Part shown: one piece after another, positions 13,753 through 21,827 of the stretch
Layout: every line of letters begins with the position of its first letter
Position numbering within the stretch: position 1 is the first letter of the stretch
Assembly: GCF_014334735.1 (NCBI RefSeq)
Contig: NZ_CP060587.1
Coordinates: 868,001 to 932,000 of the forward strand
DNA length: 64,000 nucleotides
Source of the DNA: Aeromicrobium senzhongii
GTDB lineage: Bacteria; Actinomycetota; Actinomycetes; Propionibacteriales; Nocardioidaceae
Reading direction: 5' to 3'
Notes under the pieces: generated by a model
What the model was told of the DNA's origin: nothing
Seen by the model: only the letters and a program-made list of their open reading frames with translations
Databases searched by the model: none
Made by a program: the position numbers and the translations under genes

Positions 13753-15333
13753 ATGGCGATCCCCAGCTTCGTTGACCAGGTGACCCTGCACGTCTCCGGG
13801 GGCAACGGCGGCAACGGCGTCGCGTCCGTCCACCGCGAGAAGTTCAAGCCTCTCGGCGGACCCGACGGCGGCAACGGCGGGCATGGCGGCGACGTCATCC
13901 TCGTCGTGGCCCCCGACGTCACGACGCTCATCGACTACCACCACGAGCCCCACCGCAAGGCCACCAGCGGTGCGCCCGGTGCCGGCTCGAACCGCAGCGG
14001 CTCCAACGGCGAGGACCTCGTCCTGCGCGTCCCCGACGGCACCGTCGTGCGCGACGCCAACGGCGAGGTGCTGGCGGACCTGGTCGGCGCCGGCACCGAA
14101 CTGGTCATCGCGGCCGGCGGCCGTGGCGGCCTCGGCAACGCCGCGCTCGCGTCCAGCAAGCGCAAGGCCCCCGGGTTCGCGCTCAAGGGTGAGCCGGGCG
14201 AGGAGCGCACGGTCACGCTCGAGCTCAAGGTCGTCGCGGACATCGGTCTGATCGGCTTTCCGTCGGCGGGCAAGTCCAGCCTCATCGCCTCGCTGTCGCG
14301 GGCCCGCCCCAAGATCGCGGACTACCCGTTCACGACCCTGGTGCCCAACCTGGGCGTCGTCACGGCCGGCGACACCACGTTCACCGTCGCCGACGTCCCC
14401 GGCCTGATCGAGGGCGCGAGCGAGGGTCGCGGTCTGGGCCACGACTTCCTGCGCCACGTCGAGCGTTGCGCCGCCCTCGTGCACGTCATCGACTGCGCCA
14501 CGGTCGAGCCGGGCCGTGACCCGCTGTCGGACCTGGACGTCATCGAAAACGAGCTCGCCCGCTACGGCGAGTACGCCGGTGTCGACTTCAGCGACCGGCC
14601 CCGCCTGGTCGCCCTGAACAAGACCGACGTCCCCGACGCCGCCCAGATCGCCGAGTTCGTCACCGACGAGCTGCGTCAGCGCGGCTTGCGCGTCTTCGAG
14701 GTCTCCGCGGCCAGCCATGCCGGCCTGCGCGAGCTGTCGTTCGCCATGGCCGAGATCGTCGCCGCCCGTCGCGCCGCCGAGCCGCACCGCGAGGCCACGC
14801 GCATCGTGTTGCGCCCGCCGGCCCCGTCCGGTGTCGGCCGCGAGTTCGAGGTCCGTCAGATCGAGGGCCGCTGGCACGTCATCGGCGAGAAGCCCGCCCG
14901 CTGGGTCCGCCAGACCGACTTCAGCAACGACGAGGCCGTGGGCTTCCTCGCCGACCGGCTCAACCGGATCGGCGTCGAGGATCACCTCCTCAAGCTGGGC
15001 GCCAAGGCCGGCGACGACGTCGTCATCGGTGCCGCCAGCGAGGCAGACCTGGGTCGCGACGAGGTCGTGTTCGACTTCGATCCCACCATCACGGCCGGCG
15101 CCGAGGTGCTGGGCCGTCGTGGCGAGGACCTGCGCATCGACCAGAGCACCCGTCGCACGAACCAGGAGCGGCGCGAGCTGCTCGCGGCACGTCGTGCCTG
15201 GGAGCTCGAAGCGGTCGCCGCCCGGGCCGAGGGCCGCGAGCCCGAGCCGTTCGACCCCCGCACGGTCCTTCCGGACTGGGAGATCGGTGAGGAGTACCCC
15301 GGCGACGACGAGCTCGACGAGGACGATCGGTGA
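13753..15333 (+). CDS. obgE: Obg-family GTPase (CgtA)
   Basis: 526 residues in three parts. The Gly-rich Obg fold (1-158) begins [18 protein letters not shown]. The GTPase domain has G1 GFPSAGKSS (about 165-173), DVPGLIEGA and NKTD. A C-terminal OCT domain (about 350-430) and an acidic tail follow. It acts in 50S assembly and stress control. AGGAG lies about six bases before the ATG. The stop overlaps the GTG of proB (GTGA, 15330-15333). Confidence 0.96.
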
Positions 15334-16415
15334 GGGTCGTCCTCAAGGTCGGTTCGTCCTCGCTGACGACGCCTGACGGACATCTGGACCCCGACCGCAT
15401 CGGCACCGTCGTCGATGCCGTCGTCGCGGTGCGCGCCCGCGGTGACGAGGTCGTGCTGGTCTCCTCCGGAGCCATCGCCGCCGGACTCGGCCCGCTCGCA
15501 CTGCCGAACCGCCCGCGCGACCTGCCCACGCAGCAGGCCGCCGCGGCGGTCGGCCAGCGCGCCCTCATCGCGCACTACTCCGAGGCCTTCGCGGCCGCCG
15601 GCCTGATCGTCGGACAGGTGCTGCTGACCGTCGAGGACGTCACCCGCCGCAGTCACTACCGCAACGCGCGCCAGACCTTCGCCAAGCTGCTCGAGCTGGG
15701 CGTCGTCCCGGTCGTCAACGAGAACGACACCGTGGCCACGTCCGAGATCCGCTTCGGCGACAACGACCGGCTGGCGGCGCTCGTGGCCCATCTCGTGCAC
15801 GCCGACGAGCTGATCCTGCTGTCGGACGTCGACGGCCTCTACACCGCTCACCCCGACCTGCCCGGCTCGCGTCCCATCGCCACCGTGTCCTCCGACGCGG
15901 ACCTCGAGGGGATCGATGTCGCCCGCGTCGGATCGGCCGTCGGCACCGGTGGCATGGTCACCAAGATCGAGGCCGCGCGGATCGCGACGGCCGCCGGCAT
16001 CCCCGTCCGGCTCACGTCCGCTGCTCGCGCCATCGAGGCCGTCGAGGGTCAGCCGGTCGGCACCCGGTTCAACCCCACCGGCAAGCGCCGCGCCACACGT
16101 CTGCTGTGGCTCGCCCACGCGAGCGAGACCCGGGGCCGGCTGCTGCTGGACGACGGCGCCCGCCGCGCCCTCGTCGAGCGCGGCGCCTCGCTGCTGGCGG
16201 CCGGCATCGTCGCCGTCGAGGGCGAGTTCTCCGCCGCGGACCCCGTCGACGTGATCGGTCCGGACGGCGCCCTCGTCGCCCGCGGGATCGTCAACTACGA
16301 CAGCCAGGAGCTGCCCGAGATGCTCGGTCGCTCCACCTCGGAGCTGGCCGCCACGATGGGCGCCGACCACGACCGCGCGGTCATCCACCGCGACGATCTG
16401 GTCCTCATGTCCTGA
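15330..16415 (+). CDS. proB: Glutamate 5-kinase
   Basis: 361 residues. The amino-acid-kinase domain (about 1-250) has [27 protein letters not shown] and [14 protein letters not shown]-terminal PUA domain follows (about 270-355). It phosphorylates glutamate in the first step of proline synthesis. It is coupled to obg by a GTGA overlap. The partner gene proA is 4.2 kb downstream, separated by two unrelated genes. Confidence 0.95.
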
Positions 16416-16453: not shown

Positions 16454-16484
16454 GGTGACACGGTCAAGTCACGGAGGTCGGTCG

Positions 16485-19400
16485 ATGCCCGCACCCAGCA
16501 CCGCCCAGGTGGTCATGGAGCTGCGCGTGCACGGCGTGCGCGGGACCCCGACCGCGTCGATGCTCGGCGTCGACCAGAGCCGCGTCGTCCAGGTGGCGGG
16601 GGACCGGCTCACCGGCTTCTACCGGATCGCCGACGGCGCCGACCCGCCGCTGCGGACGCTGCCGCCCGGCATGGCCCTCGAGGCGTACTCCTGGGGCGAG
16701 CTGACGTCGGGCGTCCGCGGCATGTGGGGGTGGGTGACCCGCGTGCTCTGGCTGGGGCTGCTGCCGTTCGCGCTGGTGAACCTCGCGTTCTGGGCGCGGA
16801 CACAGGTCGGTGAGAACAACGGCCAGGCCCGCTGGGGGCTGCGCGCCGTGCGCGTGAGCGGTCTGATCCTGACCGCGATCGCGGTGCTGACGGCGTGCTT
16901 CATCGCGATCGACCTGATCGCCTGGCAGTGCTTCCGGGCGAACTCCGTCGCGTGTCCGGTGCTGCCGGGGTGGTTGGACGGACTCGCCTCCCTGACCGCG
17001 GGACGGCGGATCGCCGTGACCTCGCTGGTGCCCGTGGCCATGGTCCTGGGCCTCGTGGCCCTCACGCGCCAGAGCGTCACCCGGTACGAGGCGACCCCGG
17101 ACGCGCCGGCCCAGGCGACACGGGACCAGGAGCACGACCGATGCGCCGACAACGTCCTGGGCCACCCGAGGATGTGGCAGGGCGAGCACCGGACGCGCCA
17201 GCTGCTCTACCTCCACGTCGCGCTGGCGCTCGCGACCATCGTGCTGTTCTCCGGCGTGCACCTGATCGCGCGGGAGGCGACCGGACCCGTGTGGGCGACC
17301 ACGCTCGCGGCGGCCGCCGTGGCACTGCTCGTGGTGGCCCGCGCGCTCTCTGTCGATGAGGACGACCCGGAGTTCCGCGACACGTGGAAGGTCTCCGTCG
17401 CCGGCACCGTGCACGAGTTCCCCCGTCGGCCGATGGACTGGATGACGGGGCCGGGAGAGATGCTGCGCCGGATGCCGTTGCGGCCCGTGGCGCTGGCGGC
17501 CGCGGTGGTCGTCGCCGCGCACCTGGCGCTGCTGTGGACCACGGACGTCACCAGGGAGGACGGGGACTGGTACGGCGCGAACCTGTGGTTCATCGGCCTG
17601 TTCGTCGCGCTGACGATCGTGCACGTCATCGTCTTCGTCGGCGGCCGGGCCCGACTGCGCGGCACCTTCCTCGTCGTCCTGCTCCTGCTGGCCCTGGTGG
17701 TCGGGGGCCGTGAGCTCCCGACCCTCGTGCTGGCGGGCCTCACCGCGCTGGTCTGGCTGGCGTTGATGATCTGGCACCACCGTCAGGCCGCGAAGCCCGA
17801 GCAGGCCGCGTTCGCGTGGGGCGGCGCGGGCGCCTCGGTGATGCTGGGCGGGGCCACGATGGTCGCGCTGTTGTTCACGTCGGCCGCGGCCGTCGCGGCG
17901 GCCGACTACCTGAACGACGGCTCGCAGTCGGTGGCCGACCTGACGACCCGCCGCAACGAGAACGCGCCGCTGTCGGCAGCGGGGGAGACCGACCCCCTGA
18001 CCCTGGCCGGCGACGTCGTCCTCGAGGGGGCGCGGATCGTGCGGACGAACACGACCGTCGCGGTCACCCACGGCACGGTGCGCACGGACGCGCTGACCCG
18101 ACGCAGTCGCGTGGATCCCGACTCCTCCTACTCGATGGCGTCGTCACGGGTGCAGCACGCGACCCTGGCCCTGCCCGAGGGCGTCACGACCGTGCGGCTC
18201 GTGTCCGCGTGCTTCGGCACGAACTCCGCGAAGCGCAGCGCCGTCTGCACCGGTGAGTCGACGGGCTTCCGCACGGCCGGGGTGCTCATCGTGAGGCCGA
18301 CGTGCGAGGTGGACGGGACGGTGCGGCGATGCCTCACGGTCGACGCCGCCGGTGGGCGGGTGGCGCTCGAGGTGACGGACCCGCCGCAGACGCCACTGGT
18401 CGTGCCGCAGATCCTCGTGTGGACCCCGTTGATGCAGCTGGCGGTCATCGTCTCGGGCGCCGTCGTCACGGGATTGCTGGTGTGGCGATTCCGCCGCCGC
18501 GCCGCGCCGCTGATCCGGGCGCGGGTGGACGATGACGACCCGGTCGTCCCCGAGCAGGACCGGGCGGCGGTGAAGAACGCTCGCGTGACGGCGGCGCTGG
18601 CACACCGGGGCGAGCGGCTCCTCGACGGGATCGGCGCCGTCGCCTCGCTGCTGGCCGTGACCACGCTCGCCCTGTCCTCCGCCGGCCGCCCGCCGTGGGA
18701 CTGGTGGGAGCCGGCGCGGCCGCTCGCGACGCTCTCGCTGTACGTGGCCCTCGGCCTGAGCGTCGCGCTGATGATGCTCGGCGCCCGCATCCGCCGTTCA
18801 CCCACCGCGCGACGGAACGTGGGCGTCCTGTGGGACATCACGACGTTCTGGCCGCGGGCTGCTCATCCGTTCGCGCCGCCCTGTTACGCGGAGCGGGTGG
18901 TCCCCGAGATCACCACCCGGGTGCGCTGGGCGATGGGGGAGGAGGGCCAGGACCCGGGCCGCGTCGTGGTGCTGTCCGGCCACAGCCAGGGCTCGTTGAT
19001 CTGCGTCGCGGTGGCGAGCCGCCTGAACGGACGGGCGACGCAGTTGCGACTGCTGACGTACGGGAGCCAGATCCGGGCGCTCTACGGGCGGGTCTTCCCG
19101 GCCGCCGCCGGACCCGACGCACTGGGCTACGTCCCCACCACCGGGCCCGCGCGCATGGGCGAGGCGTGGCCCGACGTCCCGAACACACCGCCCGACGACT
19201 CACCGGCGATGGCGGTGGGGCTCCGCGAGCGACTGCAGGACCCGGCGCACTGGGTGAACCTGTTCCGCCGGTCCGACCCGCTCGGGTACCGCGTGTACTC
19301 CGACCGGGACCACGTGGTCCTCGACCGGCCCACGCTCGAGGTGCGGCGCGCCGGCTCGGGCGATCCGGGCTCGATGGTGATGACGCACGGGGGCTACCAG

Positions 19401-19502
19401 CACACACCCGAGTACCGCGAGGCCATCGCGGAGTGGACGGGCGAGACGGTGCAGGTGCCCTCGACGGACCCCGCGAGCACCGAGCCGCTGCCGCCGGCGT
19501 GA
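16485..19502 (+). CDS. Large integral membrane protein with a split serine-hydrolase signature
   Basis: 1005 residues. The N-terminus (ELRVHGVRGTP, residues 12-22) resembles the first strand and oxyanion loop of alpha/beta hydrolases. About eight or nine membrane segments and an extracytoplasmic beta-rich domain (about 510-640) follow. The C-terminus has the nucleophile elbow GHSQGS (Ser834), with candidate Asp931 (RRSDPLGY) and His968 (MTHGGYQH). I infer a membrane-embedded lipase- or esterase-like enzyme whose fold is interrupted by the membrane domain. ATG 16485 has GGAGG seven bases upstream; an earlier start at 16455 lacks one. No substrate is predictable. It lies between proB and a FUSC gene of opposite strand. 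Confidence 0.75.
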   Translation: MPAPSTAQVVMELRVHGVRGTPTASMLGVDQSRVVQVAGDRLTGFYRIADGADPPLRTLPPGMALEAYSWGELTSGVRGMWGWVTRVLWLGLLPFALVNLAFWARTQVGENNGQARWGLRAVRVSGLILTAIAVLTACFIAIDLIAWQCFRANSVACPVLPGWLDGLASLTAGRRIAVTSLVPVAMVLGLVALTRQSVTRYEATPDAPAQATRDQEHDRCADNVLGHPRMWQGEHRTRQLLYLHVALALATIVLFSGVHLIAREATGPVWATTLAAAAVALLVVARALSVDEDDPEFRDTWKVSVAGTVHEFPRRPMDWMTGPGEMLRRMPLRPVALAAAVVVAAHLALLWTTDVTREDGDWYGANLWFIGLFVALTIVHVIVFVGGRARLRGTFLVVLLLLALVVGGRELPTLVLAGLTALVWLALMIWHHRQAAKPEQAAFAWGGAGASVMLGGATMVALLFTSAAAVAAADYLNDGSQSVADLTTRRNENAPLSAAGETDPLTLAGDVVLEGARIVRTNTTVAVTHGTVRTDALTRRSRVDPDSSYSMASSRVQHATLALPEGVTTVRLVSACFGTNSAKRSAVCTGESTGFRTAGVLIVRPTCEVDGTVRRCLTVDAAGGRVALEVTDPPQTPLVVPQILVWTPLMQLAVIVSGAVVTGLLVWRFRRRAAPLIRARVDDDDPVVPEQDRAAVKNARVTAALAHRGERLLDGIGAVASLLAVTTLALSSAGRPPWDWWEPARPLATLSLYVALGLSVALMMLGARIRRSPTARRNVGVLWDITTFWPRAAHPFAPPCYAERVVPEITTRVRWAMGEEGQDPGRVVVLSGHSQGSLICVAVASRLNGRATQLRLLTYGSQIRALYGRVFPAAAGPDALGYVPTTGPARMGEAWPDVPNTPPDDSPAMAVGLRERLQDPAHWVNLFRRSDPLGYRVYSDRDHVVLDRPTLEVRRAGSGDPGSMVMTHGGYQHTPEYREAIAEWTGETVQVPSTDPASTEPLPPA

Positions 19503-19503
19503 C

Positions 19504-20547
19504 CTACCGCCGCCGGGGCAGCGCGCGATCCCAGGCCACGACGACCGCCAGGCCCACCACGACGCCGAGGATGGTGTCGGACAGCCGGTCCTGCAGCAAC
19601 GACGTCACGGGCGCGGTCGAGCCCAGGTGCACCATCAGCAGCGCGAGCGGGGTGACGACCATCAGCGCGACCGCGTAGTTGCGGCCGATGAGCAGCTCGG
19701 CGCCGACCTGCAGGACGATCACGAGCAGGATCGTGGCGAGCGTGCCCAGGTCGAGGGCCAGCAGACCCGCGGCGACGACGACGCCCAGGAAGGTGCCGAC
19801 GGCACGATGCACGCCGCGCAGGACCTGGTGTCGGGTGCTCGGCCCGGCGATGGCGGCGGCCGCCGCGACCGACGCCCAGTAGGCGTGCCCGAGCCCGAAG
19901 ACGGTGGCGACGATCGCCGCCAGGGCGACGGCGAGCGTGACGCGGGTGATCTCGGGCGCCGTGCGCGGCGACCGCAGCGCGGCGTGCAGGGGCGCGTCCC
20001 AGTGCTGGCGGGGGCGGTGACGTGCCGGCGTCAGGGCGCCCATGGCCCCGACGACAAGAGCGAAGAGCGCTGTCGCCACGGCGACCGCGAGGTGAAGGGC
20101 GACGTCCCGGCTTGAAACAGGCGCCCCCGCGGTCGCGCCGACGGCGAAGACGGGGAAGAGGACGCCGGGCGGGTGCCAGGCCCAGACCAGCGAGGCCAGG
20201 GCGGCGACGGCCGCGATCCCGGCGAGGCCGACGACGACGAGCCACTCACCGGCTCCGGCGGCGGAGAGCACCGTCCCGGTCGCCACCGCGACGACGAGGA
20301 CGACGGCCGCGGTGCTCTGCATCAGGGCGCGGGGCCGGTGGGAGTTCGCCCGGCCGTACAGAGCCGTGAACGCACCGAAGGTGGCCGGCAGCGCCAGATC
20401 GAGGCGACCGATCGCCCACAGCAGGAGCAGCGGCATGCCCATGCTGACGCCGGCGCGCAGTGCGACCCAGTGCGCGTCCCCGTGCGGACCGAACGCCGTC
20501 AGTGACTCCCACGCGCGATGCAGGGCGGTGGAGTCGGAGGAGGGCAC
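19504..20547 (-). CDS. FUSC-family membrane protein
   Basis: 347 residues with about ten hydrophobic segments in two sets separated by a charged loop (TPARHRPRQHWDAP, about 165-180), the layout of FUSC / aromatic-acid-exporter-like proteins. The second half has GPSTRHQVLRGVHRAVGTFLG, typical of the family. It probably exports organic acids or contributes to envelope homeostasis. GTG 20547 (VPSSDSTALHR) is preferred to upstream starts that would run through the proA promoter. It is divergent from proA and converges on the membrane hydrolase gene. Confidence 0.78.
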   Translation of the reverse strand: MPSSDSTALHRAWESLTAFGPHGDAHWVALRAGVSMGMPLLLLWAIGRLDLALPATFGAFTALYGRANSHRPRALMQSTAAVVLVVAVATGTVLSAAGAGEWLVVVGLAGIAAVAALASLVWAWHPPGVLFPVFAVGATAGAPVSSRDVALHLAVAVATALFALVVGAMGALTPARHRPRQHWDAPLHAALRSPRTAPEITRVTLAVALAAIVATVFGLGHAYWASVAAAAAIAGPSTRHQVLRGVHRAVGTFLGVVVAAGLLALDLGTLATILLVIVLQVGAELLIGRNYAVALMVVTPLALLMVHLGSTAPVTSLLQDRLSDTILGVVVGLAVVVAWDRALPRRR

Positions 20548-20570
20548 GCCTCGATGGTAGAACTCGGAAC

Positions 20571-20576
20571 TAGACT
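20571..20576 (+). promoter_or_regulatory. -10 element of proA (leaderless type)
   Basis: TAGACT followed by six bases and ATG 20583. No Shine-Dalgarno sequence is present. Confidence 0.45.
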
Positions 20577-20582
20577 CGCCGC

Positions 20583-21827
20583 ATGGGTACCGAGGTTCGT
20601 GAAGCCGCACTGCGCGCGCGGGACGCCGCGCGGGTGCTGGCGCTCGCCACGCGCAAGGAGAAGGACGCCGCGTTGACGGCGATGGCCGAGGCACTGGTGG
20701 CCGGCACCGACCGCATCGTGGCCGCCAACGCCGAGGACGTCGCCGAGGCGCGAGCCGAGGGCACGCCCGAGAACGTCATCGACCGGCTGGCGCTCGACGT
20801 CGACCGGGTCGCGGCCTTCGCGCAGGGCGTCCGCGACATCGCGGCCCTGCCCGATCCGATCGGCGAGGTGGTGCGCGGGTCGACCCTGCCGAACGGCCTG
20901 CAGTTGCAGCAGATCCGCGTCCCGATGGGCGTCATCGGGATGATCTACGAGGGCCGTCCCAACGTCACGGCCGACGCCGCCGCGATCTGTCTCAAGGCCG
21001 GCAGCGCCTCGCTGCTGCGCGGCTCGCGCTCGGCCCGGCGCTCCAACGCGGTCATCGCCCGGATCATGCGCGACGCCGTCGCCTCGGCAGGCCTGCCCGC
21101 CGACGCGATCCAGGCGATCAGCGCCGAGGACCGCAGCACCTCCACCGACCTGATGACCGCCCGGGGCCTGGTCGATCTGGTCATCCCGCGCGGGGGAGCG
21201 GGTCTGATCCGCACGGTCGTCGAGCAGTCCACCGTCCCGGTGATCGAGACCGGCACGGGCAACGTCCACGTGTACGTCGACGCCGATGCCGACCTGGACA
21301 TGGCGCTGGACATCGTCATCAACTCCAAGACCCACCGCACGAGCGTGTGCAATGCGGCCGAATCGCTGCTGGTCCACCGTGACGTCGCCGACGAGTTCCT
21401 GCCGCGGGTCGTCAAGGAGCTGCAGGGACGCGACGTGGTGATCCACGGTGACGCCGCGTTCCAGGCGTTCGACGGGGTCGACGCGGCCACGGACGACGAC
21501 TACGCCACCGAGTACCTGGCGTCGGAGATCTCGGCGAAGGTCGTGGACTCCCTCGACGAGGCGGTCGACCACGTCCGCCGGTTCAGCTCGGGGCACACCG
21601 AGGCGATCGTGACCCGTTCGCTGGAGGCGGCCCGCCGCTTCACGATGGGGGTCGACTCGGCCGCGGTGATGGTGAACGCGTCCACACGGTTCACCGACGG
21701 CGGCGAGTTCGGCTTCGGGGCCGAGATCGGCATCTCGACCCAGAAGCTGCACGCTCGCGGTCCGATGGGCCTGACCGAGATGACCACGACCACCTACGTG
21801 GTGACGGGTGCCGGTCAGACGCGCTGA
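20583..21827 (+). CDS. proA: Glutamate-5-semialdehyde dehydrogenase (gamma-glutamyl phosphate reductase)
   Basis: 414 residues of the aldehyde dehydrogenase superfamily. It contains the NADP-binding region with '[16 protein letters not shown]', the active-site Cys in [13 protein letters not shown] (about residue 256), and the C-terminal [10 protein letters not shown]. It reduces glutamyl phosphate in proline synthesis. It has its own promoter and is not joined to proB. The downstream 49-residue membrane gene, nadD, rsfS and a phosphatase follow on the same strand. Confidence 0.95.

Follow-up and report, generated by a model that had tools for sequence, protein, structure and literature searches.

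A widespread, unnamed family of actinobacterial membrane proteins whose serine hydrolase fold is probably split by the membrane domain

The window analyzed here is a stretch of 64,000 nucleotides from the genome of Aeromicrobium senzhongii (contig NZ_CP060587.1, positions 868,001 to 932,000). On its forward strand, as are all protein features described below, lies a gene of 1005 codons that has relatives in many genomes (16485–19502, an open frame including the stop codon), with the sequence GGAGG (16473–16477) seven bases 5′ of the ATG at 16485. The flanking genes at 15330–16415 and 20583–21827 are presumably proB and proA, and the order of a proB-like gene, the family gene and a proA-like gene is found in all four Aeromicrobium-type loci (the window, L001, L399 and L400). 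Directly after the family gene, a membrane-protein gene that we take to be FUSC-like occupies the opposite strand (19504–20694), and its listed start overlaps that of proA. A comparison of 22 loci, in one of which (L396) the ORF filter left the family gene out, revealed no operon partner in the form of a neighbour common across families.

The protein belongs to a real and widespread family that is present in many Actinomycetota and carries no name. Its nearest named relative, a protein of Aeromicrobium flavum (L001), shares approximately 66% identity with it over the full length. A single-protein query detected relatives in 78 of 296 genomes from the class; relatives were also found in 22 of 296 genomes of the phylum, in 63/160, 6/22, 152/249, 15/150, 3/3 and 6/30 genomes of chosen families or orders, and in 125/298 and 170/397 genomes of two overlapping order samples, with some weak partial matches included in these counts. 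The distribution within the genus itself is patchy: three of 25 genomes carry a full-length member (that of A. senzhongii included), five carry a divergent partial match and 17 have no match. Many genomes of one genus (g69) hold two to four family matches, while most other genera hold one. A short member of 604 residues (P0002), annotated as hypothetical, is encoded on a Streptomyces plasmid. The phages that were searched gave no family match, and none of the 42 stretches of viral contigs that fit the pattern was a relative.

Scans against Pfam and NCBIfam gave the window protein no match above cut-off. Twenty members scanned singly gave only weak, lipase-like matches, including Lipase_3 (PF01764) in 13 members (best E 0.0032), Cutinase (PF01083) in 11 (best E 0.00079) and a Tle3 model in two (best E 0.041); the window protein itself matches neither Lipase_3 nor Cutinase. 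Likewise, a PDB sequence search returned likeness to cutinase and lipases in the elbow region only (best E 0.054). The original prediction had recognized no described family for this layout, and our profile scans and a literature search agree with it, the latter having found no account of such a split.

That prediction had also placed an HGVRGTP motif at residues 16–22, a nucleophile elbow, GHSQGS, at residue 834, and candidate catalytic residues at Asp931 and His968, all of which the translation bears out, with GHSQGS at residues 832–837. We aligned 317 sequences, comprising 300 full and 16 partial relatives together with the window protein. Ser834 (codon 18984–18986), on whose conservation the prediction had been made to depend in advance, is kept in 314 of the 317, Asp931 (19275–19277) in 315/316 and His968 (19386–19388) in 308/310, so that a conserved elbow serine is followed by a conserved aspartate and then a conserved histidine, in the order of α/β hydrolases. 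This substantiates the predicted C-terminal serine hydrolase triad. Conservation across the family also rules out that the motifs arose by chance. Near the N-terminus, His16 of the HG motif (16530–16532) is retained in 296/302 members, Gly17 in 302/302, Glu12 in 300/302 and Trp70 in 309/309; in the elbow, His833 is retained in 305/317. Other conserved positions include Pro94 (309/312), Asn99 (312/313), Asp143 (300/315) and Pro790 (317/317). Two histidines are invariant and thus better kept than the catalytic serine, namely His244 (17214–17216; 314/314) at the inner end of a membrane helix, and His794 (18864–18866; 317/317) in an HPFAPP stretch that precedes helix B.

Residues 776–985 (18810–19439) were assigned with hhalign to helix B, β5 and the elbow, β6, and the strands that carry the aspartate and the histidine. 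Among the weak C-terminal matches, we used L059, L139–L143 and L237 as contiguous hydrolases for comparison, and left aside L236 (a fragment), L238 and L239 (GDSAG type), L144 and L145. In L059 and L139–L143, an LHGVG strand lies approximately 140–170 residues before a GHSLG or AHSLG elbow, which is followed by a GSPLA strand and by WWxNxWNxxDPVA; L237 has VTIHGIG and AHSQGT. Columns 776–985 of the family align with the six sequences L059 and L139–L143 at a probability of 97.6 (E 3.6e-12), with the elbow, TxGSP and WxNxxxxxDP all in register, and L059 passes the cut-off of Abhydrolase_6 (PF12697; 31.4 vs 26.3 bits). This alignment and this match identify the C-terminal part, by sequence homology, as half of an α/β hydrolase, beginning where helix B would stand. 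The window protein itself stays below every Pfam cut-off. The PF12697 match of L059 begins at its HGVG strand, and the C-terminal half alone therefore lacks the strands and the loop that the N-terminus resembles. These soluble relatives (L059, L139–L143 and L403, the last with HGR in place of HGVG) share with the family the HGVG, GHSLG and TxGSPL motifs and the W-N-D strand. They differ from it in being a single domain, in which no membrane part separates the first motif from the elbow.

In the window family, the first-half motif (a strand followed by HGVxG) stands at the N-terminus, some 800 residues ahead of the C-terminal half. Residues 11–22 (ELRVHGVRGTP; 16515–16550) would form a strand and an oxyanion-type loop, which we read as β3 from the conservation of Glu12, His16 and Gly17 and from the order of motifs in the contiguous relatives. 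Residues 64–76 (ALEAYSWGELTSG; 16674–16712), which contain Trp70, are read as β4 and a turn, and match the WADLSSG of a Cupriavidus relative. Two profile comparisons count against a joint fold. Joining the N-terminal profile to the C-terminal one gave an E of 8.1e-12 against the contiguous hydrolases, and the C-terminal profile alone scored better. On three targets, 14, 5 and 17 of 100 shuffles did as well as the N-terminal profile by itself, whose best placement on L237 was elsewhere than the HG motif.

The Cupriavidus relative (P0003, WP_220631949.1), a distant one from another phylum, is a betaproteobacterial protein of 751 residues, annotated as hypothetical, from a plasmid of Cupriavidus pinatubonensis. 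Its motifs follow one another as in the window family, with membrane helices among them: VAVIAVHGVG, ELRWADLSSG, about ten or eleven membrane segments, and VVVAHSQGT. Its C-terminal part scores 49.8 bits against the family profile. The family N-terminal profile is placed best on WADLSSG, which is thereby aligned with YSWGELTSG in the window protein, and two of 200 column shuffles scored as high. Written as a strict regular expression, this motif is found in 188 of the 317 members, the whole motif being looser than Trp70. P0003 differs from the window family in its longer N-terminal part, with approximately 110 residues between HGVG and WADLSSG, in the helix after WADLSSG, which is not membrane-spanning by the scale that we used, and in its membrane helices, which are not clearly alignable. 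Next to the P0003 gene, on L404 (20-1243), lie a small hypothetical gene and a gene whose product includes a domain for peptidoglycan binding (PF01471, 57.8 bits).

Between the two conserved ends, the original prediction had described several membrane helices and a beta-rich domain, and both can be located. The window member has 13 hydrophobic segments between residues 81 and 770, of which the first is helix 81–101 (16725–16787), with the near-invariant Pro94 and Asn99, and 12 lie in the membrane domain proper (residues 124–770; 16854–18794), where most members have 10. The two extra helices are accompanied by a beta-rich stretch at about residues 478–640 (17916–18404), which we place outside and in which Cys576, Cys588, Cys607 and Cys616 are conserved in the A. 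flavum relative. Its occupancy in a family alignment of 223 sequences is below 0.35 and mostly at or below 0.1, and the domain is therefore special to Aeromicrobium-type members. We discarded the idea that it takes part in the active site, since most of the family does without it.

We examined topology with a simple hydrophobicity scale, accepting segments up to 3.0, in the 302 members with a complete N-terminus (15 of the 317 were dropped as incomplete). Helix 81–101 was found in 302/302, and the number of further segments is even in 269/302, mostly 10 or 12. In 224 members, the mean number of lysines and arginines was 3.8, 5.2, 3.5, 2.8, 6.2 and 2.9 in the inner loops and 1.9, 1.0, 1.4, 1.6 and 1.2 in the outer loops, and this clean alternation places the half that carries Ser834 on the inside. 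If helix 81–101 spans the membrane, the number of segments is odd and the N-terminus lies outside, opposite Ser834; the 15 residues ahead of this helix are indeed poor in lysine and arginine (1.06), as in outer loops. We doubt that it spans, because Pro94 and Asn99 are near-invariant in mid-helix, because its counterpart in P0003, with a window score of 5.7, does not look like a spanning helix by that limit, and because the homology requires both halves together. We propose instead that helix 81–101 is re-entrant, which would bring the N-terminus inside. For the claim that both termini form one cytoplasmic hydrolase, the inner location of the C-terminal half and the equivalence of the HG motif to the first motif of the contiguous relatives are thus in its favour, while the naive segment count opposes termini on the same side and so, by the refuting condition set in the original prediction, goes against the claim. 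A split layout is likely, with the N-terminus outside by the naive count and inside if the helix is re-entrant as proposed.

The residues lost from the family bear on whether the two ends work together. Three members (L335, L338 and L341) lack Ser834, with asparagine in two and glutamine in one; they form one clade (support 0.999), and all three have proline in place of His16. Reconstructed by parsimony on a central-region tree of 629 branches, His16 was lost four times and Ser834 once, the latter loss coinciding with one of the former. The chance that a Ser834 loss falls on one of four His16-loss branches among 629 is approximately 0.6%, for what is a single event. The remaining three His16 losses are in L375 (Q835H) and L061 (H833Q, Q835M), where the elbow is altered, and in L330, where it is unaltered. 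The co-loss of His16 and Ser834 is a strong hint, at the level of sequence, that the two may belong to a common active site, as the claim of a single hydrolase would have it. The clade without Ser834 keeps Asp931, His968, His244 and His794, and its members are probably pseudoenzymes.

Covariation and structure prediction were also applied to the two ends. Mean-field direct coupling analysis (DCA) of the N- and C-terminal columns returned the pairs V15-A816, A67-C800, G20-L933 and V18-G969. In a clade-preserving shuffle test, control regions had a similar excess, so that contacts between the N- and C-terminal parts were not singled out, and a full-length covariation model contained 19 such pairs in the top 1348 where 31.7 were expected by column number, that is, no enrichment. 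We do not count the DCA pairs as support because of these two results. AlphaFold2, given the single A. flavum relative as partner sequence, reached a mean pLDDT of 36.7 for the whole protein and 36.3 for residues 776–1005, too low for the models to be used.

A different arrangement has to be weighed at this point, in which the protein consists of two domains that are independent of each other: an N-terminal one of approximately 80 residues on the outside, whose HGVxGT would be a ligand-binding or signalling motif, and a cytoplasmic hydrolase that completes its fold with other strands, the two being joined by a spanning helix 81–101 and the oxyanion likeness being coincidental. The odd number of hydrophobic segments, the low charge ahead of helix 81–101 and the lack of specificity in the covariation would all suit it. 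It is at odds with a C-terminal half that begins at the helix B equivalent of the contiguous relatives, with the joint loss of His16 and Ser834, and with P0003, where HGVG and WADLSSG still precede the membrane helices even though the next helix is non-spanning by the scale used (score 5.7). On balance, we regard this arrangement as unlikely. Still less credible is a protein whose main part is a membrane domain for transport or lipid translocation and whose hydrolase-like module is regulatory, in which His244, Asp143 and His794 would matter more than Ser834: the two invariant histidines exceed Ser834 in conservation (314/314 and 317/317) and persist with Asp931 and His968 in the clade that has lost it, but nearly all members have the complete Ser/Asp/His triad, which a non-catalytic module does not need, and for the membrane domain neither Pfam nor NCBIfam gives a match above cut-off.

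The best reading of these data, and in our judgement a probable one, is a single α/β hydrolase that a membrane domain divides in two at the lid site after β4. Residues of about 10–76 would supply the first part of the fold, with β3 and the HGVRG oxyanion loop followed by β4 ending in YSWGELTSG; a membrane domain of 10–12 helices would be inserted after β4; and residues of about 776–985 would supply the remainder, with helix B, the Ser834 elbow, Asp931 and His968. The two parts would meet at the cytoplasmic face, helix 81–101 dipping into the membrane and returning. The position after β4 is a recognized lid site of α/β hydrolases, and membrane helices in this superfamily are described as neighbouring N- or C-terminal additions, in the portion of the source cited here (PMC11878206).

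Several known systems combine a hydrolase with a membrane part. Abhydrolase_9 with Abhydrolase_9_N (PF10081/PF15420) has a membrane domain fused to an α/β hydrolase, described for lipases, and differs in that this domain is a neighbour and is not inserted into the fold, within the cited part of the account (PMC11878206); the window protein matches neither model, and both are absent among the best 25 of 28 families listed for 20 members. The GPI inositol deacylase PGAP1/Bst1 (PF07819) combines a Ser-Asp-His α/β hydrolase with beta-sandwich domains and a membrane domain of ten helices. It differs in having its lipase domain in one piece and luminal, whereas the fold of the window family would be in two pieces with the serine half inside (PMC10761859, in the part of the text drawn on). 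At E 10 the window protein has no PF07819 match, and one of 20 members matches at E 0.34. The phospholipase effector Tle1 shares an α/β hydrolase with a Ser-Asp-His triad and a membrane-anchoring part, and differs in that this part is amphipathic and C-terminal (residues 451–882), as given in an excerpt of PMC13133936.

Under the split-fold reading, the enzyme is most likely a membrane-embedded serine hydrolase, its activity being predicted, that cleaves a fatty substrate within the membrane. The membrane domain would act as an oversized lid that hands an acyl-containing membrane substrate to Ser834. The substrate would most likely be a membrane lipid or an acyl ester reached from the inner leaflet, much as the lipase and membrane helices of PGAP1 jointly form a lipid cavity (PMC10761859, in the part cited). 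As a more speculative extension, to which we attach rather low confidence, the lid turned membrane domain may bind or move a lipid-linked substrate and close the active site by moving the oxyanion loop of the N-terminus against the half that carries Ser834, such that capture or transport and hydrolysis would be one event.

The split reading predicts that His16 and Ser834 sit in one active site. If it is true, the lid site after β4 would accommodate an entire membrane domain as well as small caps, and the family would offer a test case for the folding of an enzyme core that is split by some 700 residues. It would also mean that many actinobacterial genomes hold a membrane hydrolase that has no name in the annotation libraries consulted and whose fold comes together across a membrane domain.
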